Part shown: piece by piece, positions 37,908 to 51,243 of the stretch
Position numbering within the stretch: the stretch's first letter is position 1
Layout of the letters: each line of letters begins with the position of its first letter
Assembly: GCA_012513515.1 (NCBI GenBank)
Contig: JAAZCA010000009.1
Span: 38,084-102,083 of the forward strand
Length of the DNA stretch: 64,000 nucleotides
From: Myxococcales bacterium
Lineage (GTDB): Bacteria; UBA10199; 2-02-FULL-44-16; JAAZCA01
Direction: 5' to 3'
Translations under genes and position numbers: made by a program
The notes under the pieces: generated by a model
What the model saw: the letters and a program-made list of their open reading frames with translations, nothing else
Database searches by the model: none
Told to the model about the DNA's origin: nothing

Positions 37908-39074
37908 TCATCCAAAATACCTCTGCATGAGGGCGTTGAAGCAGTTGTTCATTTGCTCAAGGCTTTCCTTCATTTTTTGTTTTGTTGATTCGACTTGTCC
38001 GACAATTGCTGCGAATTTGTTTTGGAGGTCGATGGGGGGTGTCGGAACACGGAGTTCGCGCAATATTTTTAAGTTTATGTTTTTCTGTGCCGACTCTGGA
38101 GCTTTATCTTCAATAGATTTCTGAAGAAATGATAACCACATTTGAATATACTCGGTGCGAACGCTGGAGCTAGGTGAAAATCCCACCACACTGTCCGGAA
38201 AACAAGCTTCGAACGTAAGAATGCCAGTTTTTGCAATATTTGCCGCGATGGTTATGCATAATGTTCCGACAGGCCACAATTTGCTTTGTTTTAAACCTAT
38301 CTCCGAATAGGTTTGGTTGTATGATTTTATATAGCCATTCGAATTTGCAACATCGCCTGTTTGAACCAGAGGATATGGGCCACCAAGTAATTCGGGGGCA
38401 TTTCTTGGTCTGTGTTTGGATTTTCCTCTGTCTAGGTTTCCTAGTTCTGAAAACATTTTTGCATCCCATAATCTGTCATTTAATTCCGGATCACCGAACA
38501 TTTCGAGGAAGGTGGAGCGAAGAAAATCGTCGAGGAGTTTTATGGATTGTTTGCGTGTGTGCCGCACCATGTCCGTCTCTTCGAGGACAGAAGCAATTCG
38601 AGCTTGTTCGGGAAGGGAATGAAAAGGTATTTTTAGTCTGCAGACATCTTTTGGGTATAGGTGAATTCCTTTTACAAGTCCCTTGATGGCATGAATTGTT
38701 TTGTTTGCCCTGAAAAAAAAGTGCAAATAATCAGGGCTTACCTTTCCTTTTTTTGCTCTAACTATGAGCCACTCACCTGTTGCAATAGATCCAGTTACTT
38801 CCTCTGTAGCTTTGTATTGTTTTGATCCTACATAATTAGCATTGTGAGCAGCATTTAAAATTAAGGTGTCATTCGCTTCTATTGTCTTTAGTGAATATTT
38901 ATCAAAAAATTCTTTGTCTACAAATGATGTAAAATTACCAGAAAACACTCCATCAGCGGATATATCCTTGATTTTTAGCACAGGATGGCCAGACTCCCTT
39001 TGCTCCATTTTGGAAGGTGTTTTGCCATTAAAGACATCTGCAATTTCTGTAAGTATTATTGAATTATTAGTCAC
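37908..39074 (-). CDS. hsdS: Type I restriction-modification specificity subunit
   Basis: 388 residues with two target recognition domains (about 1-165 and 200-360), each followed by a conserved helical spacer: LPEQARIASVLEETDMVRH after the first and IDLQNKFAAIVGQVESTKQ after the second. HsdS chooses the bipartite DNA target of the complex; the target cannot be read from sequence. It starts with GTG overlapping the hsdM stop by four bases (GTGA). Base composition is AT-rich relative to the flanking housekeeping genes, which fits horizontal transfer. Confidence 0.93.
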   Translation of the reverse strand: MTNNSIILTEIADVFNGKTPSKMEQRESGHPVLKIKDISADGVFSGNFTSFVDKEFFDKYSLKTIEANDTLILNAAHNANYVGSKQYKATEEVTGSIATGEWLIVRAKKGKVSPDYLHFFFRANKTIHAIKGLVKGIHLYPKDVCRLKIPFHSLPEQARIASVLEETDMVRHTRKQSIKLLDDFLRSTFLEMFGDPELNDRLWDAKMFSELGNLDRGKSKHRPRNAPELLGGPYPLVQTGDVANSNGYIKSYNQTYSEIGLKQSKLWPVGTLCITIAANIAKTGILTFEACFPDSVVGFSPSSSVRTEYIQMWLSFLQKSIEDKAPESAQKNINLKILRELRVPTPPIDLQNKFAAIVGQVESTKQKMKESLEQMNNCFNALMQRYFG

Positions 39075-40627
39075 TTAATCATTCCCTCGAGTGTATTCAA
39101 TTTCTTTTGGATATCTTCTTCCATGTCGTTAAGTCGTGATAAAATCACTTCCGGCCTTTTATATTCCACTCTTTCATACGTAACTTCCTTGTATCTATTT
39201 ATGCTTAAATCGTAATTGTTCTCTACGATATCGCGCACTGGGACGAAGAAGCACTTTGCCTTTCGATCCTGCATCTTTTCTTTTGTGCGCGTCTTCCACT
39301 TGGCGACGATATCGAGAAGGTCGCTTTGATCGATCTTTTCGCGCTTATCATCGAGTGAATATCCGTCTGCCTGCATGTCGTAGAACCAGACCTTTTCCGT
39401 TTGGCCGCCCTTGACGAAGATGATGATTGCCGTGCTCACTCCGGCATAGGGCTTAAAAACACCGGAGGGCATAGAAACCACGCCTTGCAGCTCGCAGGAC
39501 TTGATGAGCATTTCTCGAAGCTGTTTATGCGCATTGCTCGACCCGAAGAGAACACCGTCTGGAACGATCACGGCGGCACGTCCGCCTATTCTCAATGAAT
39601 TGATGATTCGATTGACGAAGAGAAGCTCAGTCTTTGTTGTTGAAACCTTCAATGTTTCATTGATATCGCCCTTGTCGATACTTCCCTTGAATGGCGGATT
39701 TGCCAGAATGACATCATATTTATTATCTTCATTGTATTTTTTCGAAAGCGTATCCTTTCGATCCACCGATGGGTTTGGAATTCCATGCAAAAGCAGATTC
39801 ATGAGACCGATTCTTACCATGGTTGAATCAAAGTCATATCCGAATAGGGTGTTTTCCTTGAGCTGCTTCCAGAGACGATCATCTGATATTTTGTCGGCAA
39901 GGAGGCCCTTGGTAAAACCATTTTCATCTTTAAACTGATGCTCCTTACTCGTATGGGTCGTCAAAATATGCTGATAGGCCCCTAGAAGAAAACCACCTGT
40001 TCCACAGGCTGGATCGCAGATGCTTTCAGGAAGCTTGGGATCCAATAGCTCGCACATGAGCTGGATGATATGCCTTGGCGTTCTGAACTGGCCGTTCTTT
40101 CCCGACTGTGAAATCTCCGAAAGAAGATATTCATACATGTCGCCCTGTGTGTCGTTGAAGGTCTGACCCGACTGGATTTCCTTGTCGATATCGTTGTAAA
40201 GCTCATCGATGATACCCACGGCCTCAACAAGGAGCGAAGGCTTTGGAATGATAAAGACGGCATCTTCCATAAACTTTGCAAATCTGGAACCAAGGCCGTT
40301 TAGATTCTTTATGAAGGGAAAGACGCGAAGCTGCACGTGTTTGAGCATCTCGCCGCCTTCCATCTGTTTGAAATGGCTCCATTTAAGCGTCGCCTTGTCG
40401 ACCTTGTCGTTTGTGTTGGGAATTTGAAAGGTGCCCTTGAAAACGGATTCGTATTTCTCGCCGGTAAACTCCGCATCCTTGACTTTCTTTGTGTCGATTT
40501 CATCCAGTCGGCGCATGAAGAGAAGATAGGATATCTGTTCCATCGCTGTCAGTGGGTTGGATATTCCCCCGCTCCAAAACTTATCCCAGAGCTTATTTAT
40601 TTTAGCTTTAAATATTGCTGATAGCAT
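39071..40627 (-). CDS. hsdM: Type I restriction-modification DNA methyltransferase subunit
   Basis: 518 residues. An N-terminal HsdM bundle (INKLWDKFWSGG, MEQISYLLFMRRLDE) precedes the methyltransferase domain with SAM motif DPACGTGGFLLGAY and catalytic NPPF (VILANPPFKGS), which marks an N6-adenine methyltransferase. It methylates the host's own target sites with HsdS. AGGGGAA before the ATG at 40627 is the best start; that ATG follows the fic stop by one base, so fic, hsdM and hsdS are translated from one message. Confidence 0.95.
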   Translation of the reverse strand: MLSAIFKAKINKLWDKFWSGGISNPLTAMEQISYLLFMRRLDEIDTKKVKDAEFTGEKYESVFKGTFQIPNTNDKVDKATLKWSHFKQMEGGEMLKHVQLRVFPFIKNLNGLGSRFAKFMEDAVFIIPKPSLLVEAVGIIDELYNDIDKEIQSGQTFNDTQGDMYEYLLSEISQSGKNGQFRTPRHIIQLMCELLDPKLPESICDPACGTGGFLLGAYQHILTTHTSKEHQFKDENGFTKGLLADKISDDRLWKQLKENTLFGYDFDSTMVRIGLMNLLLHGIPNPSVDRKDTLSKKYNEDNKYDVILANPPFKGSIDKGDINETLKVSTTKTELLFVNRIINSLRIGGRAAVIVPDGVLFGSSNAHKQLREMLIKSCELQGVVSMPSGVFKPYAGVSTAIIIFVKGGQTEKVWFYDMQADGYSLDDKREKIDQSDLLDIVAKWKTRTKEKMQDRKAKCFFVPVRDIVENNYDLSINRYKEVTYERVEYKRPEVILSRLNDMEEDIQKKLNTLEGMIK

Positions 40628-40628
40628 T

Positions 40629-41681
40629 TCATTCCCCTTTGTTGATCCATTTGGCATTTCTGCCTTTGCCTTGCAGGACGATCTTTCCTTCGCTTTTTAA
40701 TTGTCTCAATACGTTTCGCACCATATCCCTGCTGGTATTGAAACACTCTCTTTCAATATCTGAGATTGAAAATGGCCCTATTTTTCTGCCTACGGTTTGT
40801 CGTATCTGATCGGTTTTGGAGCCCTTGCCAATTTTGACATTGCCAACCCGCTGCTCAAATTCGCGATAAGCCCGAAGCAATGCTCCCCAGAAATAGGTCA
40901 TCCATGAAAGCGGGTCATGTTTCGATTCATGCCAACCCTGCGAGCTTTTTTCCAAACTTTCGTAATAGGTTTCCTTCGATTCTTCGAAGATGCGCTCGAG
41001 GCTGATAAAACGACCGACCTCGTAACCGAATTGATAGAGAAGCATCAGGGTAAGAAGCCTTGCCACGCGACCATTTCCATCTGAAAATGGATGTACACAG
41101 AGGAAATCAAGAATCACCAAAGGCAGGATGACGAGGGGCTCCCTGCCATCCTGATGGATGGCCTGCTTATAGTTATGTATAAGCTCATCCATGAATCCGG
41201 GCGTGGCAACTGCGGATACGGGTTTGAAACGCACCCTTATGATAGTACCATCAGGATTCTTTTCGACGATGTCATTCTCGGTCATTTTCCATTGGCCTGC
41301 AGTAGCGGGCATATATCTGTGAATAAGAGCGTGGAGCTGCAAAATAATGTTATTGCTCAAATCCATATGCATTGCTGACTCGTGGATGAGGTTCAGCGCA
41401 TCACGATAGCCTGCGATTTCCTGTTCCGATCTGTTCTTGAGATCTGTCTTTTTAAGGACGATATTTTCGATTCTTTCATGCGGAGCTGTTATTCCCTCGA
41501 GCCTGTTAGAAGACTCGCTGGATTCAATGATGGCCACCTGTTTGAGAGATTCAAGTATTTCCGGGGTTTGCTGAAAAAAAAGGGCCTGTTTGCCCTTATA
41601 TTCCCCTATTTTTTGGAGGGTAGAGGTATTTGATTCTGTAAAACTTAAAGATTCTAAGTATTTATCTGATAACGAAGGCAT
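40629..41681 (-). CDS. Fic family protein with N-terminal inhibitory motif and C-terminal winged helix
   Basis: 350 residues. The Fic core motif HPFSDGNGR begins at H197, so AMP or another nucleotide group can be transferred to protein hydroxyls. The antitoxin-like inhibitory motif S-x3-E-G is present in the same protein (S58-NRL-E62-G63), which keeps such enzymes silent until released. A C-terminal winged-helix segment (about 290-350, DIERECFNTSRDMVRNVLRQ) suggests DNA binding. The gene sits between hsdR and hsdM, has its own promoter with an operator-like repeat, and is coupled to hsdM. It might regulate the restriction system or modify a host target. Confidence 0.9.
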   Translation of the reverse strand: MPSLSDKYLESLSFTESNTSTLQKIGEYKGKQALFFQQTPEILESLKQVAIIESSESSNRLEGITAPHERIENIVLKKTDLKNRSEQEIAGYRDALNLIHESAMHMDLSNNIILQLHALIHRYMPATAGQWKMTENDIVEKNPDGTIIRVRFKPVSAVATPGFMDELIHNYKQAIHQDGREPLVILPLVILDFLCVHPFSDGNGRVARLLTLMLLYQFGYEVGRFISLERIFEESKETYYESLEKSSQGWHESKHDPLSWMTYFWGALLRAYREFEQRVGNVKIGKGSKTDQIRQTVGRKIGPFSISDIERECFNTSRDMVRNVLRQLKSEGKIVLQGKGRNAKWINKGE

Positions 41682-41704
41682 ATCTTATCCCTTATTTATT
41701 GGAT

Positions 41705-41747
41705 AAAATATTGCATAAATAGGGTAATGTCAAGCGCATATTACCCT
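41705..41747 (-). promoter_or_regulatory. fic-hsdMS promoter with inverted-repeat operator
   Basis: On the minus strand: TTGACA (41733-41728), 17-base spacer, TATTTT (41710-41705), and AAGGGA just before the fic ATG. The inverted repeat AGGGTAAT (41721-41728) and ATTACCCT (41740-41747) brackets the -35 box; a related GGGTATTACC lies at 41757-41766. This is where a repressor, perhaps the winged helix of Fic itself, would bind. Confidence 0.6.
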
Positions 41748-41770
41748 GTTTATTGTGGGTATTACCTTGT

Positions 41771-44566
41771 TTAGGCGGCTATTTTTCCCACCAAACCAAG
41801 GATTTCATCGATTTCGGTCTTTGTGAAGATCCCCCTGATCCCCTCAGGATGAATCTGGGTGAATGGCGCGCTCACGAGGTCGCGTTTATCAACTCTACCC
41901 CGCTGCAGGATGAAGGATTTGAGCACGAGCAAAAACTGAATCTGCCGCTGGCTGTAGTTGTTGTGAGCCCTGATAAAACCATCAAAGAGGAAGGAGACCT
42001 CTTCCGTGAATGTAGCCAGTGGTTCCAAACCCAATATGTGTTTGATGATCTGAGCAAATTTCGCACTGCGATTGTCATATATCTTTTGAAGGTTTTCTTC
42101 TGTGGCATTCGGGCATTTTTCTTTCAGGATGAGGGCGATTTCCTCAATTTCATCGCTCGTCAAATCATCTCCTGCGATGAGTTTTTGAAGAACCTTGTTC
42201 GATTGTACAAGGCTGTGGATGGCTTCCTCGATCTTCTTTCGATAGTTGTCGACAGATAACCTTTCATGCTCCGGGCCGAATTCGATATATTCCGTAACCG
42301 TCAAGAGATCTATCAGATCCGTTTTGACCTGTTCTAAGCCTCCACGATCCCTGTATTTCATAAGTGGAGCAAGCCTCTCAATCATTTCGTCGAGGTCGTC
42401 GTCTGTAAAGGAAGCCCAGAAATGATTGCTCGTTACCTTTTCGATATAATCCTTTTCTTTTGCAACGACATTGACCGTGAGTGGAAGTTCTTCGATGGTT
42501 TCGATAACGCCTTCTTTGAGAGTATCAAATTTTTCGAGGTCATTATTGAGGCGAGCCGTTGCAAGCTCTACGACATCGAGCTCAAAGTGCATTGCCTTGA
42601 AATCAGCATCCGACTTAGCTCGCATGACTGGAGCAATGTATTGCCTCAAATAATCGACTGATTCATCTTTAACGTTTTTCCAGAACGCCTCATCTGAAAC
42701 CCTGTCGAGATACTTTTTGTTGTCGATGACCGTTACGCTATTTACAGGCAGTGATTTGATATCTTTCCTGAGCTCAATCTTTACCTTATCGACAATTTCT
42801 GTCTTCGAAGCCTCGTTTGCGGCAATGAGTTTTTCGATTCTTGCTTCAAATAATCTTACGGGAAGAGGCCTTGTCGGGCTCGGTTCCTTGCCCTTGGGTT
42901 TCATCTTGAAATATTCAAAATTCTCCCAGCAATCCATTATCAGAAACTTATCTTTGTGGGGACACCACGGTTTAATCTTTTCTGGACTCAGTATTCTCGT
43001 GCCCCTACCGATCATCTGCCAGAATTTCGTGTAAGAGAAGACGGGCTTTGCAAAAACGAGGTTGACGATTTCAAGAACATCGATGCCTGTATCGAGCATA
43101 TCGACGCTTATTGCTATGCGGGGCATGTCTTCGGTTTTGAAACGGTCTAATATGCCACCCTTGCCATGAACACCCTTAACGTCGGAGATAATAACTTCCG
43201 CAAGCTGGCCCTTATATTCAGGATATAACGAATTAAACACTTCGCACAGTCTATAGGCGTGTTTCTTTGAGATTGCGAAGAACACGCTCTTTCCGGGCAA
43301 GACACCGTTTGGATCTTTAATACACTCCTCCATAAACTTTCGAACGATCAGCGTATTCGTGCCCTTGTTTGAAACCCTTTTTTCAAGCTCCGTGCCCTCG
43401 AAGTCGTATTGATCTGGGTCTTTGCCTTCAGCCAGCAATCGTTTCCTGTCTATATCCGCTATGGTCTGGCTGTTGATGCCTTCTTGCTGGAATTTCGTTC
43501 GTATTTTTAAAACCTCATAATCACATAGGTATGGGGGCTCATTGTTGACGGCTTCTTCATAGGAGTATGCATAGGTAGGATAACCGTCTTCACACTCAAA
43601 GAGCTTGAATGTGTTATGATCTACATGATCCTTCGGTGTTGCGGTAAGGCCGAGCTGGATGGAATCAAAATATTTAAATATGTTTCCATAAACATTGTAG
43701 ATCGAGCGATGGCTTTCATCAGCTATGACAAGATCAAAAAAATGAGGTGTTAAGGGGCATTCATCCTGCTCGATGATGTTGAGCATTGTCGGATAGGTTG
43801 CCACGTATACACGCCTATCTTTGACGAATGACGTTTCACCTTGTTTAGGCCAGACAGGTGCATTGGGAAGGAATTCTTTAAAGGCCTCCATAGCTTGCTC
43901 GCGAAGGGCAATTCTATCTACGAGGAAGAGAATCCTCTGCGCCCAATTGGTGCGCATCAAAACATCGATAAAAGCCATGGCTGTTCGTGTCTTGCCCGTA
44001 CCAGTCGCCATGACCATTAAAAATCTTCGGTGTTTCTTAGCAACCTGTTCCAGAACGGCCCGAATCGACTCGATCTGATACGGCCTGCCAGCAATACCTG
44101 TGTTGATAAGTTCGCTTGAAAGCTGCCTGCTGTTATTTCGTAAAAACTGCATTCTTTCGAGATCTTCAGGAGAGGGAAAGCCGTAAACCCTGCGTGGAGG
44201 ATAGCGCTCCGTATCCCAGAAGAAAATATCGTAGCCGTTTGTATAAAAGACAAACGGCATGGGGCATTCCCATTTGTTTTTGATCTTTTCAGCATAGTTT
44301 CTGGCCTGCTCTTTGCCGACCTCCGCATTGACAGAAGTTCTTTTCGCTTCGACAACGGCAATGGGCTTGCCGTCATCACCAAGCAACGCATAATCAGCAA
44401 ATAAATGGCCCTGATAGGGTGATGTTGGATCTATCGCTTCTTCCGGAAGACCTGCCCAGATATCAAGTTCCTGCGTAACTCTAAGGGGATTATCGACATA
44501 CCAACCAGCTGAAATAAGCTTTTTATCGATAATCTCTCTGCGTGTTTGCGCTTCTGTTCTATCCAT
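41771..44566 (-). CDS. hsdR: Type I restriction enzyme, R (endonuclease/translocase) subunit
   Basis: 931 residues. An N-terminal nuclease domain has the PD-(D/E)xK lysine in VVEAKRTS. The SF2 translocase follows with motif I MATGTGKTRTAMAF, motif II DESH and motif VI QMIGRGTR; the C-terminus (from about 800) is the EcoEI-type helical domain that docks on HsdM. It cuts unmethylated DNA after ATP-driven translocation. First gene of the locus, separated from fic by 89 bases that contain a second promoter. A 7-bp hairpin (44582-44602) lies 15 bases before its start. Confidence 0.94.
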   Translation of the reverse strand: MDRTEAQTRREIIDKKLISAGWYVDNPLRVTQELDIWAGLPEEAIDPTSPYQGHLFADYALLGDDGKPIAVVEAKRTSVNAEVGKEQARNYAEKIKNKWECPMPFVFYTNGYDIFFWDTERYPPRRVYGFPSPEDLERMQFLRNNSRQLSSELINTGIAGRPYQIESIRAVLEQVAKKHRRFLMVMATGTGKTRTAMAFIDVLMRTNWAQRILFLVDRIALREQAMEAFKEFLPNAPVWPKQGETSFVKDRRVYVATYPTMLNIIEQDECPLTPHFFDLVIADESHRSIYNVYGNIFKYFDSIQLGLTATPKDHVDHNTFKLFECEDGYPTYAYSYEEAVNNEPPYLCDYEVLKIRTKFQQEGINSQTIADIDRKRLLAEGKDPDQYDFEGTELEKRVSNKGTNTLIVRKFMEECIKDPNGVLPGKSVFFAISKKHAYRLCEVFNSLYPEYKGQLAEVIISDVKGVHGKGGILDRFKTEDMPRIAISVDMLDTGIDVLEIVNLVFAKPVFSYTKFWQMIGRGTRILSPEKIKPWCPHKDKFLIMDCWENFEYFKMKPKGKEPSPTRPLPVRLFEARIEKLIAANEASKTEIVDKVKIELRKDIKSLPVNSVTVIDNKKYLDRVSDEAFWKNVKDESVDYLRQYIAPVMRAKSDADFKAMHFELDVVELATARLNNDLEKFDTLKEGVIETIEELPLTVNVVAKEKDYIEKVTSNHFWASFTDDDLDEMIERLAPLMKYRDRGGLEQVKTDLIDLLTVTEYIEFGPEHERLSVDNYRKKIEEAIHSLVQSNKVLQKLIAGDDLTSDEIEEIALILKEKCPNATEENLQKIYDNRSAKFAQIIKHILGLEPLATFTEEVSFLFDGFIRAHNNYSQRQIQFLLVLKSFILQRGRVDKRDLVSAPFTQIHPEGIRGIFTKTEIDEILGLVGKIAA

Positions 44567-46375: not shown

Positions 46376-46726
46376 TTAAGATGCCGGATTAAACTTCTTC
46401 AGATTGATGATCATCGCGTACGCCCTGCGAAGCAGCGTTTTCAGCTCCTCCTGATAGCCTGCCGATATATATCCATAAACCGACAAGATATCGATAATCG
46501 AGGCGACCTCGGCTATTGACCCTAGCGAAATATCGAAAAACCGATTTCTGTCTCTCTGCAACCTCCTGCCGTTTCCCTCCGCCAAGTTAAGTAGCGTGCT
46601 AGAAAGCGCCCGTTTAAGCTGATCCTCCAGATAGTAATTCCCCCTTGGAAGGGATCCGATTAGCTCTGGCATCTTTTTTGCGACCGAAAGCAAAAGTCCG
46701 TAGCAGTGAAGCCGCTGATGATTCAT
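46376..46726 (-). CDS. Four-helix-bundle protein (S23/IVP family), copy 1
   Basis: 116 residues, all helical: HQRLHCYGLLLSVAKKMPEL, QLKRALSSTLLNLAEGNGRR, FFDISLGSIAEVASIIDIL, YQEELKTLLRRAYAMI. This is the four-helix-bundle family first seen in 23S rRNA intervening sequences and related to Avd of diversity-generating retroelements; members form pentameric barrels and bind nucleic acid. GGAGGGGG precedes the ATG. It faces a close paralogue at 46813 across an inverted repeat. No rRNA or reverse transcriptase is near. Confidence 0.87.
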   Translation of the reverse strand: MNHQRLHCYGLLLSVAKKMPELIGSLPRGNYYLEDQLKRALSSTLLNLAEGNGRRLQRDRNRFFDISLGSIAEVASIIDILSVYGYISAGYQEELKTLLRRAYAMIINLKKFNPAS

Positions 46727-46740
46727 TTAAAACCCCCTCC

Positions 46741-46801
46741 TTGTGATTTTAATTTCAAAACCTCTCACTTCGGTCGGGAGGTTTTGAAATTAAAATCACA
46801 A
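46741..46801. repeat. 24-bp perfect inverted repeat with UUCG-type loop between the S23 genes
   Basis: The left arm 46741-46764 and right arm 46778-46801 are exact reverse complements over 24 bases. The 13-base centre adds ACTTCGGT (AC-UUCG-GT), a cUUCGg tetraloop, plus two more pairs with one bulged base. Both arms lie in the leaders of the two genes, next to each Shine-Dalgarno sequence. An RNA copy from either strand would form an unusually stable stem of about 28 bp. Confidence 0.9.
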
Positions 46802-46812
46802 AGGGAGGCGTT

Positions 46813-47148
46813 ATGTTCGGACATCAGCGGCTTTACTGCTACAATCTTTGCCTTGGGGTGGCAAAAAGGATGCCAGAGCTAATCGACTCTTGGCCCTCGG
46901 GATCGGGCTATCTAGTGGATCAGCTTAAAAGGGCACTTTCGAGCGTTATACTAAATATCGCGGAGGGGAACGGCAGGAGGTCGATCAAGGAGAGAAGGAG
47001 GTTTTTCGATATCGCGATAGGATCTGCTACCGAAGTATCCTCTATCTTCGATGTCGCTATCGCTTATGGATATATCAGCAAGCCTATCTACGAGGAGCTT
47101 CAATCGGCGCTGCTTCAGGCGGTGAGGATGCTCTACAAACTGAAGTGA
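46813..47148 (+). CDS. Four-helix-bundle protein (S23/IVP family), copy 2
   Basis: 111 residues, about 60% identical by eye to the divergent copy at 46376-46726 and of the same length and layout: HQRLYCYNLCLGVAKRMPEL, QLKRALSSVILNIAEGNGRR, RRFFDIAIGSATEVSSIFDV, YEELQSALLQAVRMLYKLK. The conserved AEGNGRR turn and FFDI are in both. AGGGAGG (46802-46808) four bases before the ATG. The two coding starts share CATCAGCGGCTT at DNA level, so the pair arose by inverted duplication that included the leader. Confidence 0.87.
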   Translation: MFGHQRLYCYNLCLGVAKRMPELIDSWPSGSGYLVDQLKRALSSVILNIAEGNGRRSIKERRRFFDIAIGSATEVSSIFDVAIAYGYISKPIYEELQSALLQAVRMLYKLK

Positions 47149-47272: not shown

Positions 47273-47300
47273 TTGCCTTGTCGTCTCTTTTACCTATACT
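47273..47300 (+). promoter_or_regulatory. Promoter of the isochorismatase operon
   Basis: TTGCCT (47273-47278), 16-base spacer, TATACT (47295-47300). The start site would be near 47307, giving a leader of about 70 bases that includes a small GGTT/AACC stem (47322-47335) and the terminator-like hairpin. Confidence 0.5.
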
Positions 47301-47334
47301 CCCGCTTCGACGGTTATGACAGGTTCCACGAAAC

Positions 47335-47367
47335 CACCCAGGCCGAAGGGCCCGGGTGTTTTTTTTT
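47335..47367 (+). terminator. Terminator-like hairpin in the isochorismatase leader (attenuator candidate)
   Basis: CACCCAGGCC (47335-47344), loop GAAG, GGCCCGGGTG (47349-47358), one mismatch, then nine T's (47359-47367). GGAGG begins at 47368 and the ATG is at 47377. A full intrinsic terminator therefore lies between the promoter and the ribosome binding site, with no room for another promoter after it. Confidence 0.75.
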
Positions 47368-47376
47368 GGAGGAGAG

Positions 47377-47946
47377 ATGAAAAATGTAAGTCTTAAAAAG
47401 GCCGCCCTAATCGCAATAGACATGCAGCGCTATTTTCTCGAACCGGGGGAACGAGCATGCATAGAGGGGGCAAAAAAAATCATTCCCAATATCGCGTCTC
47501 TTATGAATGAGTTTCATATCCGATCAAAACCCATCATCTTCACCAGACATGGTTATGAGATGAATGAGGATACAGGAATGATGGGAAAATGGTGGGAGGA
47601 AAAGCTCCCCATGTTGGAAGACGATGAATCGCATCTAATTGAAGAAATGAATCCCGCCCCTGCCGACCTCATCATCATAAAGAAGAGCTACAGCGCCTTT
47701 CACGGTACTGAGCTAGATACAATTCTCAAGAAAAACGACACCGAGGCCCTCGTCATCTGCGGCGTCATGACAAACCTTTGCGTTGAGACTACAGCGAGAC
47801 ACGCCTTCATGCTTGGCTATCAGCCGATCGTGGTTTCCGATGCATGCGCCGCGAAGAATATGCAGCACCATGAAGCGGCCCTTTTGAACTTGAGTTATGG
47901 ATTCTCACCGACCCCTACTACCGGAGAGCTCCTGAAATGGTTCTAA
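47377..47946 (+). CDS. Isochorismatase-family cysteine hydrolase
   Basis: 189 residues. The Asp-Lys-Cys catalytic triad is visible: Asp in AIDMQRYFLEPG, Lys in IIIKKSYSAFHGTEL, Cys in CGVMTNLCVETTARHAF, with the cis-peptide GVMTN before it. Family members hydrolyse nicotinamide, isochorismate, ureidoacrylate, N-carbamoyl compounds or similar; the metal-binding D-x-H set of nicotinamidases is not evident, so the substrate is open. GGAGGAGAG directly before the ATG. First gene of a three-gene operon with a flavoprotein and an RlmN-like radical SAM protein. Confidence 0.9.
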   Translation: MKNVSLKKAALIAIDMQRYFLEPGERACIEGAKKIIPNIASLMNEFHIRSKPIIFTRHGYEMNEDTGMMGKWWEEKLPMLEDDESHLIEEMNPAPADLIIIKKSYSAFHGTELDTILKKNDTEALVICGVMTNLCVETTARHAFMLGYQPIVVSDACAAKNMQHHEAALLNLSYGFSPTPTTGELLKWF

Positions 47947-48770
47947 ATTACGGACTTGCAATAGTCGGAGGGGGGCCAGCTGGGATTGCCGCAGCGATAC
48001 ACGCTTCAAGACTGGGGCTTACAACTGCACTAGTCGAAAAAAACGAACTCGGCGGTCAGGCAAACATCGCCCCCTGGATAGAGAATTATCCGGGATTCCC
48101 GGATGGGATACGGGGTAGAGATCTAATTTCCAACTTCAAGGATCAACTCGCAAGATGGAAGGTGAAAGTAATTTCAGCCGAGGCGGTATCACTTAACTTG
48201 GACGAAAATGTCTTCGTATTAAAAACGAGCGCCGGGAATATTCTAGCTCTAAATATCATAGTAGCCACCGGCATGTCCCCGAAAACGATCGGGATAAAAA
48301 ATGAAATCCCCTATGCCGATCCGGCGAAGACCCCTCACGACGGCAAAGATGTTCTCATCGCGGGAGGTGGAGACTGCGCCTTCGACCTCGCTGCAGAGTT
48401 CGCACTCAACGCGAAAAGCGTCACTATCTCCATGCGCGGCGAAAAAATATCGGCGATCCACAGGGTGGCAGAACGAGCAAAAAAGCGCGGCGTGCGGATA
48501 ATAAAGAATTCCGATCCAACGAAAATACCGTACGACATCCTCATAAGCTGCATAGGTAAAAACTCTGAGGTCCCCTTCGTTCAAAATATCATCAAAAATT
48601 TCGCAGGCCTTACAATATCGCCCGGAGAGGCAAAGGCCCCAAAAGGGCTTTTCTTCGCCGGGGATATCTGCCGGGGCAGGCTGAGGCACATCGCAATCGC
48701 AGCAGGGGATGGGATAGCTGCGGCACAGTCCGCATATGAAAGGCTTAAAAAAGATGAAAATAATAAGTGA
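47937..48770 (+). CDS. FAD/NAD(P)-binding oxidoreductase, thioredoxin reductase-like, lacking the redox CxxC
   Basis: 277 residues. FAD-binding GGGPAGIAAAIHA near the N-terminus, GGQANIAPWIENYPGFP (thioredoxin reductase hallmark), IVATGMSP, second dinucleotide motif GGGDCAFDLAAEFA and a C-terminal FAD motif GLFFAGDICRGRLRHIAIAAGDG. Between the two nucleotide-binding motifs, where thioredoxin reductases carry CATC, the sequence is short (NEIPYADPAKTPHDGKD) and has no Cys pair. It therefore cannot reduce thioredoxin in the usual way and is better seen as an oxidoreductase for a small molecule or another protein. Overlaps the hydrolase gene by ten bases. Confidence 0.88.
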   Translation: MVLNYGLAIVGGGPAGIAAAIHASRLGLTTALVEKNELGGQANIAPWIENYPGFPDGIRGRDLISNFKDQLARWKVKVISAEAVSLNLDENVFVLKTSAGNILALNIIVATGMSPKTIGIKNEIPYADPAKTPHDGKDVLIAGGGDCAFDLAAEFALNAKSVTISMRGEKISAIHRVAERAKKRGVRIIKNSDPTKIPYDILISCIGKNSEVPFVQNIIKNFAGLTISPGEAKAPKGLFFAGDICRGRLRHIAIAAGDGIAAAQSAYERLKKDENNK

Positions 48771-49650
48771 AAGCGGCGACAAGAATCTCGCCGAGGTGTT
48801 CGTAGCCAAATTTAGGGGGGATGAAAAATTTCTCGCGGAGTTCGTGGACGCCAAGGACCCGACGATGCCGCGCAACAAAAAATGGGTCATGATATTATCG
48901 ACACAGTTCGGCTGTCCGGTGAAATGCCCTATGTGCGATTCCGGCGGAAATTATCATGGGGATCTCTCCGCCGATGAAATTCTCTCCCAGGTTCGCCACA
49001 TCCTGTCGAGATACCCGGATGAGTTCGCAAATTCTTGCGAAAAGCTCAAAATACAGTTCGCTAGAATGGGGGAACCGGCGCTAAACAACTCCGTGCTAGA
49101 AGCGCTGCGAGCACTCCCCTCCCTTGTTGCGCCGAAGTTGATGATCCCGTGCGTCGCCACGACCGCCCCCGCCGCGTCGAAGAGGTGGTTCGAAGAATTG
49201 CTGGAAATAAAAAATGAGCTTTATTCAGAACATCTCTTCCAAATACAGTTCTCGATAAATTCAACCGATCCCGCGCAAAGGGACCATATGATGCCGATAG
49301 CCAAGATGTCTTTCGACGAAATATCGAAATTCGGTAAGCGGTTCGTAAGAAGGGGAGAAAGAAAGGCAGCGCTCAACTTCACCACGGTAAAGGGACTCGA
49401 TTATGACGCCGATGTCATAGCCAGACATTTCTCCCCTGAACACTTCTGCGTAAAGATGACGCCGCTAAACCCTACCGAATCGGCCGATGAGGCAGGGCTT
49501 AGATCTTCTTTCGAAGAGATAGCCGAGCCTTTCGCGGAGAAGCTCACAGGGCACGGATTCGATGTCATACTTAGCATCGGAGATCTCAAGGAAAACGAGA
49601 TCGGCTCGAACTGCGGCCAATCGGTGCGCAGGCTTCATAAATCCATATAA
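48754..49650 (+). CDS. RlmN-like radical SAM protein
   Basis: 298 residues. The cluster motif C-x3-C-x2-C lies in FGCPVKCPMCDSG. RlmN-type blocks follow: RMGEPALN, QFSINSTDPAQRDHMMPI, NFTTVKGLDYDA and VKMTPLNPT, and near the end NCGQS, the position of the methyl-carrying Cys355 of RlmN. The N-terminal helical RNA-binding domain of RlmN is missing and the position of Cys118 is Ile (MILSTQFGC). It may methylate an RNA or small molecule, or do other chemistry. The ATG at 48754, inside the flavoprotein reading frame, has AAAGG ten bases upstream; 48736 is possible. Confidence 0.85.
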   Translation: MKIISESGDKNLAEVFVAKFRGDEKFLAEFVDAKDPTMPRNKKWVMILSTQFGCPVKCPMCDSGGNYHGDLSADEILSQVRHILSRYPDEFANSCEKLKIQFARMGEPALNNSVLEALRALPSLVAPKLMIPCVATTAPAASKRWFEELLEIKNELYSEHLFQIQFSINSTDPAQRDHMMPIAKMSFDEISKFGKRFVRRGERKAALNFTTVKGLDYDADVIARHFSPEHFCVKMTPLNPTESADEAGLRSSFEEIAEPFAEKLTGHGFDVILSIGDLKENEIGSNCGQSVRRLHKSI

Positions 49651-49770: not shown

Positions 49771-49986
49771 ATGCAGCTCAACTTAAAAAGTTTTCTAAAA
49801 AAACAAAGGAAGGTAATGAATCTCACACAGGAGGAGCTGGCCCTAAAGGCCGGAGTAGGTCTCTGTTTTGTCCGCAGCATGGAGCAAGGGAAAAAATCCC
49901 TCCGCATGGATAAGGTCAATCAAGTACTTTCCCTTTTCGGTTGTGAAATGGCGCCGATCGACAGCAAATCTGTGGAGGCGGAATGA
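49771..49986 (+). CDS. hipB: HipB-type helix-turn-helix antitoxin/repressor
   Basis: 71 residues with a Cro/CI-type HTH: LTQEELALKAGVGLCFVRSM then EQGKKSLRMDKVNQVLSLFG. In HipBST systems HipB binds the operators and tethers the HipST complex. GGAG lies before the ATG. ATGA overlap with hipS. The upstream operators are described at 49654-49752. Confidence 0.9.
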   Translation: MQLNLKSFLKKQRKVMNLTQEELALKAGVGLCFVRSMEQGKKSLRMDKVNQVLSLFGCEMAPIDSKSVEAE

Positions 49987-50306
49987 CCAGAAAAGCAAAT
50001 GTATTCTATTCAGATATTCTAGCAGGATACCTCGTAGAGGATTCAGAGGGATATAAATTTTTCTATGACAAAAAATATATCTCGGAAATCGACGCAAAGG
50101 CGGTCAGCCTCACTCTTCCTATATCGGAAGGGATCTACAATTCGAAAACTCTCTTCCCCTTTTTCGACGGTCTGATTCCGGAGGGGTGGCTGCTAGAAAT
50201 ATCGGTCGATCTCTGGAAACTCGACCCGAGGGACAGAATGGGACTTCTCCTTGCTTGTTGCAAAGACTGCATCGGAGCTGTATCGCTGGAGGCGGCAAAT
50301 GAGTAA
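49983..50306 (+). CDS. hipS: HipS-like protein (HipA N-terminal subdomain 1)
   Basis: 107 residues matching the small N-terminal subdomain of HipA as a free protein: VFYSDILAGYLVED, FFYDKKYI, AVSLTLPISEGIYNS, FPFFDGLIPEGWLLE and DRMGLLLACCKDCIGAVSL. In the tripartite HipBST system of enteropathogenic E. coli the separate HipS is the antitoxin. Overlaps hipB (ATGA) and hipT (eight bases). Confidence 0.88.
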   Translation: MTRKANVFYSDILAGYLVEDSEGYKFFYDKKYISEIDAKAVSLTLPISEGIYNSKTLFPFFDGLIPEGWLLEISVDLWKLDPRDRMGLLLACCKDCIGAVSLEAANE

Positions 50307-51243
50307 GTGCCTTATATGCTACGAAGACGTGAAGAACGCCGATTACCATGAAAAATGCGCAAAGCGTTTTTTTCAAACGCATTCCGTTCCACTGCTCCCC
50401 TATAAAATTGAAGAGCTGAAAGAAATTGCAAAAAATGAAATAAGGGAAAGCTGTGCAAATATCACCGGAGTTCAGAAAAAGATTTCGTTGGGCGTGAGGA
50501 AAAGTAAAAAAGAGAGACGTTTGACCTTTACGAACGTCTGGGGACGTTTCATTTTAAAACCTCCTGCCGACAGATATCCCGAAATGCCCCAAGTTGAGCA
50601 CCTCTCGATGATGCTTGCCGAGGCTGCAAACATACAAGTTGTCCCCTACGCACTCATAAGGCTGGCTTCAGGAGAACTCGCGTATATTTCAAGACGAATA
50701 GACAGACCCAAAGACGGCGGAAAGCTTCACATGGAAGATATGTGTCAATTGACCGAACGATTGACGGAAGACAAGTACAAGGGCTCTATGGAAAATATTG
50801 CAAAGGCAATTAGACAATATTCTTCCGCGCCGATGCTGGACATTGTTAGATTTTTTGAACTAGCCATCCATTCTTTCTTGATAGGCAACGCCGACATGCA
50901 TCTTAAAAATTTTTCACTTATCATGAAAGATCCCGAGAAATTCTTCCTCTCCCCCGCATACGATCTGCTATCAACTAGGCTCTTGATCCCCGAGTCAGTA
51001 GATTCGGAGGAAATGGCGCTTCCCATATGCGGAAAAAAGAAAAAACTCAGCGGTAATGATTTTTATATTTTCGGCGAAAACATAAATCTCAACAAAATCC
51101 AGATCAAAAATGCGATTAATCTTTTTTTGGACAGACTGGAGATATTCTACGAAATCATAGATAAATCATTTCTCACCGACGATATGAAAAATGAATTTAA
51201 GGGGCTTATTAAATCCAGAGCTCTAAGGTTGCGACACTCTTAA
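50299..51243 (+). CDS. hipT: HipT-like serine/threonine kinase toxin (HipA C-terminal kinase)
   Basis: 314 residues. A short N-terminal Cys/His cluster (C4, C7, H17, C20 in CLICY...YHEKC) may bind zinc. The kinase core follows: the Gly-rich ejectable loop with autophosphorylation Ser region SCANITGVQKKIS, ATP-binding GRFILKPPADRYPE, catalytic loop HSFLIGNADMHLKNFSLI and the metal-binding LSPAYDLLST. HipT toxins phosphorylate an aminoacyl-tRNA synthetase (TrpS in the E. coli O127 case). GGAGG six bases before ATG 50299 fixes the start. The order B-S-T matches the tripartite system. Confidence 0.9.
   Translation: MSKCLICYEDVKNADYHEKCAKRFFQTHSVPLLPYKIEELKEIAKNEIRESCANITGVQKKISLGVRKSKKERRLTFTNVWGRFILKPPADRYPEMPQVEHLSMMLAEAANIQVVPYALIRLASGELAYISRRIDRPKDGGKLHMEDMCQLTERLTEDKYKGSMENIAKAIRQYSSAPMLDIVRFFELAIHSFLIGNADMHLKNFSLIMKDPEKFFLSPAYDLLSTRLLIPESVDSEEMALPICGKKKKLSGNDFYIFGENINLNKIQIKNAINLFLDRLEIFYEIIDKSFLTDDMKNEFKGLIKSRALRLRHS

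Follow-up and report, generated by a model that had tools for sequence, protein, structure and literature searches.

Three overlapping genes in the window, the 64,000-nucleotide stretch of Myxococcales bacterium DNA that we analysed, almost certainly make up a single undescribed functional unit, judging by the conserved order, co-occurrence, and correlated divergence of their sequences. They encode an isochorismatase-superfamily cysteine hydrolase, a thioredoxin reductase (TrxR)-like FAD/NAD(P)H flavoprotein, and an RlmN/Cfr-like radical SAM (rSAM) protein, and each of the three departs from its kind within a known superfamily. In our preferred reading, to which we assign a probability of roughly 45%, the cassette specifies an NAD(P)H-fed module in which a mobile cysteine would pass a methylene group to a substrate that is not ribosomal and probably small; an amide would be hydrolysed either ahead of this step or following it.

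Organisation of the locus

All three genes are encoded on the forward strand. The hydrolase gene (47377..47946, 189 aa) overlaps the flavoprotein gene (47937..48770, 277 aa) by 10 bp, and the latter overlaps the rSAM gene (48754..49650, about 300 aa) by 17 to 35 bp, depending on the rSAM start: the reading frame is open from 48736, but by the family alignment the ATG at 48754 is the likelier start. A sequence-only reading of this DNA had correctly described the genes as overlapping, but its claim that they share one promoter was not borne out. The putative sigma-70-type promoter found in a consensus scan (TTGCCT-16-TATACT, 47273..47300, forward strand) matches only 9 of 12 consensus positions, and a terminator-like hairpin followed by nine T residues (47336..47367, forward strand, fold about -18 kcal/mol) separates it from the first start codon. 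Because the hairpin directly abuts the ribosome-binding site of the hydrolase gene, transcripts from upstream must read through it. It is not kept at most other loci, and strong counterparts exist at a few (e.g., L077 and L090). The region upstream of the hydrolase gene gave no credible Rfam match when searched for known riboswitches and attenuators.

Conservation of the cassette in unrelated bacteria

Using a profile built from 12 orthologues, we found the rSAM family in 34 of 385 sampled genomes, which represent 23 families by their classification codes. Members score at least 257 bits, and every other match in the 385 genomes scores at most 81 bits. Two further relatives were found, in MAGs labelled Elusimicrobium and Myxococcota, and scans of viral contigs returned no member of the family.

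Synteny was compared across 36 loci, the one in the window included. The order hydrolase-flavoprotein-rSAM is present in 26 of these, mostly with overlapping genes, and a search for the triplet across genomes, as the sequence-only reading had proposed, thus recovered it in many lineages. At 35 loci the rSAM gene is immediately preceded by the flavoprotein gene, the exception being a contig end, and the junction between the two is a 4-bp overlap at 14 loci; RlmN differs from the cassette protein in lacking this constant position beside a flavoprotein. No other neighbour recurs, and no fourth gene is conserved across the 36 loci.

The linked hydrolase clade occurs in 26 of the 34 genomes that carry the rSAM gene and in none of the 351 that lack it (p = 1e-33, relatedness ignored). 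Seven carriers possess a hydrolase of the sister clade alone, encoded elsewhere in the genome, and in the hydrolase tree the unlinked hydrolases of carriers belong mostly to this sister clade and not to the linked clade. Sister-clade hydrolases are enriched in carriers (p = 4e-10, again with relatedness ignored) but not exclusive to them, because 12 genomes without the rSAM gene also have one; given these 12 and the seven carriers, the hydrolase may matter less to the unit than its two partners. Compared pairwise, the three proteins remain correlated in their distances once RlmN distance is controlled for (partial Mantel r 0.58, 0.31, and 0.41). The earlier proposal that the three genes act together is thus strongly supported by conserved order and overlap, near-exclusive co-occurrence, and divergence that is correlated beyond the RlmN control.

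These features could also be accommodated by a cassette that is not biosynthetic and serves to repair metabolite damage, to detoxify, or to salvage; the flavoprotein and hydrolase would then act on an unwanted heterocycle or amide that the rSAM protein makes processable. Such a role would suit a unit that is complete in itself, lacks neighbours for biosynthesis or transport, and is spread patchily over 23 families, but we saw no links to toxicity, stress regulation, or transporters, and the co-divergence of the three proteins is compatible with either reading; we consider this alternative unlikely.

A separate clade of RlmN/Cfr-like radical SAM proteins

A phylogeny, which had been suggested as a check, placed the rSAM protein in a clade of its own: in a tree of 61 sequences, the 34 full-length members are monophyletic (support 90), and 16 RlmN sequences lie apart. 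The RlmN model TIGR00048 matches the window protein with 49.3 bits, far under its curated cut-off of 290. The source genome encodes a separate true RlmN (378 bits, labelled C29) that is not an orthologue of the cassette gene. A true RlmN is also present in 30 of the 34 carriers, and on this ground we rejected the idea that the rSAM protein replaces RlmN.

RlmN and Cfr, the characterised radical SAM methylases of class A, act on adenines in RNA and depend on two cysteines. Either enzyme traps the covalent adduct when its Cys118 equivalent is lost. In RlmN, Glu105 activates the mobile cysteine (C355), a Cys-bound methylene radical attacks the adenine, and the electron that regenerates the cysteine comes from an unidentified source; in both RlmN and Cfr, the Cys118 equivalent is required for adduct release (PMC9692996).

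The window protein has the cluster cysteines C60, C64, and C67, the MGEP motif, and the mobile cysteine C293 (in SNCG), and it carries Ile53 at the position of E. coli RlmN Cys118. Its match to TIGR00048 opens at model position 97 of 355, leaving out the RNA-binding N-domain, and its N-terminus consists of the strands that precede the cluster. The sequence-only reading had recognised both the retained RlmN-type features and these losses, and they extend to the whole family. The CxxxCxxC motif, the counterpart of Glu105 in E. coli RlmN, and the mobile cysteine are invariant in all 34 aligned members, the Cys118 equivalent is replaced by Ile, Val, Leu, or Met in all 34, and the N-domain is absent throughout. 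The family thus resembles RlmN and Cfr (class A; TIGR00048 and TIGR04432) in its radical SAM core, CxxxCxxC, Glu105 equivalent, MGEP, NP motif, and mobile cysteine, but differs in lacking the N-domain, Cys118 (Cfr Cys105), and a basic core. The mean net charge of the core is -0.73 per 100 aa, compared with +2.36 for RlmN from the same genomes, and it is the lower of the two in 26 of 27 pairs (Wilcoxon p = 9e-6).

Judged by its residues, the protein probably performs mobile-Cys chemistry. The weak RlmN score might point to a degenerate RlmN, but that candidate was rejected on the invariant catalytic residues and the separate clade, and a chance neighbourhood is ruled out by the conserved gene order in unrelated genomes; we give the two next to no credence.

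The sequence-only reading had offered either a small-molecule route or an RNA modification, and the two can now be weighed. If the target were RNA, the rSAM protein would methylate tRNA or rRNA away from the RlmN site, aided by a dedicated reductase, and the modified base, or a nucleoside related to it, would be processed by the hydrolase. The nearest characterised relatives are indeed the RNA methylases RlmN and Cfr, and the SAM and mobile-Cys chemistry appears to be kept. However, the RNA-binding domain and, in 26 of 27 pairs, the basic charge have been lost, carriers keep a true RlmN, and it is hard to see what an amidohydrolase would contribute to RNA methylation, so we regard an RNA target as improbable. 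The same losses, together with the retained RlmN, favour the small-molecule route, and we lean towards a small molecule as the substrate.

Since loss of Cys118 traps the adduct in RlmN and Cfr, an intact methylation cycle is not assured in the rSAM protein. The Cys-bound methylene might instead end in a stable thiomethylene, a crosslink, or a cyclopropane, a product that the flavoprotein and hydrolase would complete. The substitution of the releasing cysteine by an aliphatic residue or Met in 34 of 34 members would fit such an outcome (PMC9692996 for the role of this cysteine), but the base could come from another residue or from the substrate, and we think this outcome quite unlikely.

Several phage proteins resemble the cassette family in part. 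RlmN-like proteins of Bacteroides phage Versailles and phrog_24834 also lack the N-domain, and the Versailles protein, which keeps the mobile cysteine and has Thr at the Cys118 position, is sister to the cassette family (support 99 for the two together). The phage genes are solitary, in contrast to the cassette, and the other phage groups keep or have lost both cysteines. The phage RlmN-like proteins without an N-domain (L038, L039, L040, and L094-L100) form three groups: one with both cysteines kept, one with both lost and a shortened C-terminus, and one with Thr at the Cys118 position and the mobile cysteine (Versailles). Another RlmN-like protein without the N-domain is encoded at L035 (3243-4094); it keeps both cysteines, and a second radical SAM gene adjoins it.

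The flavoprotein

The flavoprotein (Pfam Pyr_redox_2, PF07992) has both Rossmann nucleotide-binding motifs and, as had been read from the sequence, has lost the CATC redox pair; CxxC is absent in 35 of 35 cassette flavoproteins, which separates them from thioredoxin reductase (TIGR01292). Fold searches for the cassette identified Cfr and TrxR as the nearest structures, and AlphaFold modelling, with three sequences as input, produced models of low confidence (pLDDT 61 and 60).

TrxR-like proteins without CxxC work as ferredoxin or flavodoxin reductases, and in these TrxR-type FNRs a C-terminal extension stacks on the FAD (PMC10294844). The cassette flavoproteins share the TrxR fold motifs, the two nucleotide-binding motifs, and the absence of CxxC with these ferredoxin/flavodoxin-NADP+ reductases, but lack the FAD-stacking extension and score closer to TrxR in profile comparisons. 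Their tail is shorter than in the FNRs and ends where TrxR ends, with about 27-50 residues between the GD motif and the C-terminus. With neither CxxC nor a C-terminal extension in the way, a docking partner should be able to reach the flavin. The linkage of the genes and the lost motifs suggest that the flavoprotein serves as an electron donor, for which we see even or slightly better odds. A precedent for this role is LipT, an FAD oxidoreductase encoded with the rSAM enzymes LipS1/S2 (PMC10332631). The LipS1/LipS2-LipT lipoate assembly resembles the cassette in pairing rSAM enzymes with an FAD, NAD(P)H-dependent oxidoreductase as the proposed donor; by the papers' descriptions, it is set apart by its different rSAM enzymes and by having no isochorismatase-type hydrolase.

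The hydrolase

Pfam PF00857 (Isochorismatase) matches the hydrolase with an E-value of 1.4e-45. The Asp-Lys-Cys triad noted earlier is present as D15, K102, and C135, and it occurs in every orthologue and sister-clade protein examined, except that L084, at a contig end, lacks the D position. Cys135 occupies the position at which true isochorismatases (EntB/PhzD) have Gly in place of a nucleophile. From what is known of the superfamily, the retained triad and the Cys for Gly exchange favour C-N hydrolysis by way of a thioester over isochorismate cleavage. The triad and fold are shared with superfamily cysteine hydrolases such as 3irv, RutB, biuret hydrolase, and N-carbamoylsarcosine amidase, but the cassette hydrolase scores low on the RutB, BiuH, and PncA equivalog models and belongs to its own clade, which is tied to the rSAM gene. 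The PncA model gives 48 bits against a cut-off of 174, and TRH stands, by inspection alone, where the nicotinamidase metal site (DxH...H) has DxH.

Proposed mechanism and novelty

Under the methylene-transfer reading, the three genes would encode a self-contained enzymatic module. As in RlmN and Cfr, one SAM would methylate the mobile Cys293 and a second would give a 5'-deoxyadenosyl radical; the resulting Cys-S-CH2 radical may then attack a substrate at an sp2 carbon. This substrate is probably not rRNA but a small molecule, either heteroaromatic or olefinic. To release the adduct, a base other than Cys118 would be needed, contributed by the enzyme itself, its substrate, or a partner. The flavoprotein, with a flavin uncovered by CxxC or a C-terminal lid, would act as a dedicated NAD(P)H-to-FAD electron donor, and its electrons could serve to reduce the cluster, to quench the thiyl radical after fragmentation, or both. 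The hydrolase is predicted to act via a thioester on either the precursor or the product, breaking a bond of the amide, ureido, or carbamoyl type.

Family models, structure entries, and the open-access literature contained no named system or description of the three-gene set, in agreement with the sequence-only reading; an earlier description outside the open-access literature is possible. There is a fair chance that the pathway is wholly new. The cassette could represent a third functional class of RlmN/Cfr-type enzymes, which would do without the resolving cysteine in passing methylene to a small molecule and which, together with a dedicated flavoprotein donor and a cysteine amidohydrolase, would form a new, widespread pathway leading to a novel metabolite. 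If the preferred reading is true, the rSAM family would extend RlmN/Cfr chemistry to another substrate, and the cassette would offer a system from nature in which to look for the electron donor and the base that complete the RlmN/Cfr cycle. The presence of the set in many unrelated bacteria points to a metabolic pathway that is open to testing, and because the unit is small, self-contained, and found in about 9% of sampled genomes, it should be easy to express and test.

Neighbouring genes

In the window, type I restriction-modification genes with a Fic-like gene lie upstream of the cassette (37908-44566), and a HipBA-like pair lies downstream (49774-51243). Despite these restriction-modification and HipA-like genes, a role in anti-phage defence was rejected, as PADLOC models gave one weak match (E 0.006). 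Two divergent four-helix-bundle (S23-like) paralogues (46376-47148) flank a palindromic stretch at 46727-46818. An OsmC-like gene directly 3' of the rSAM gene was found in only two related genera (L030 and L031), the same two that have a carbamate-kinase-like gene. At L118 and L119, where the cassettes lack a hydrolase, a sister-clade hydrolase gene lies beside or near the carbamate-kinase-like gene, which is a faint hint of ureido or carbamoyl chemistry; at L119, the carbamate-kinase-like gene is broken into two ORFs.
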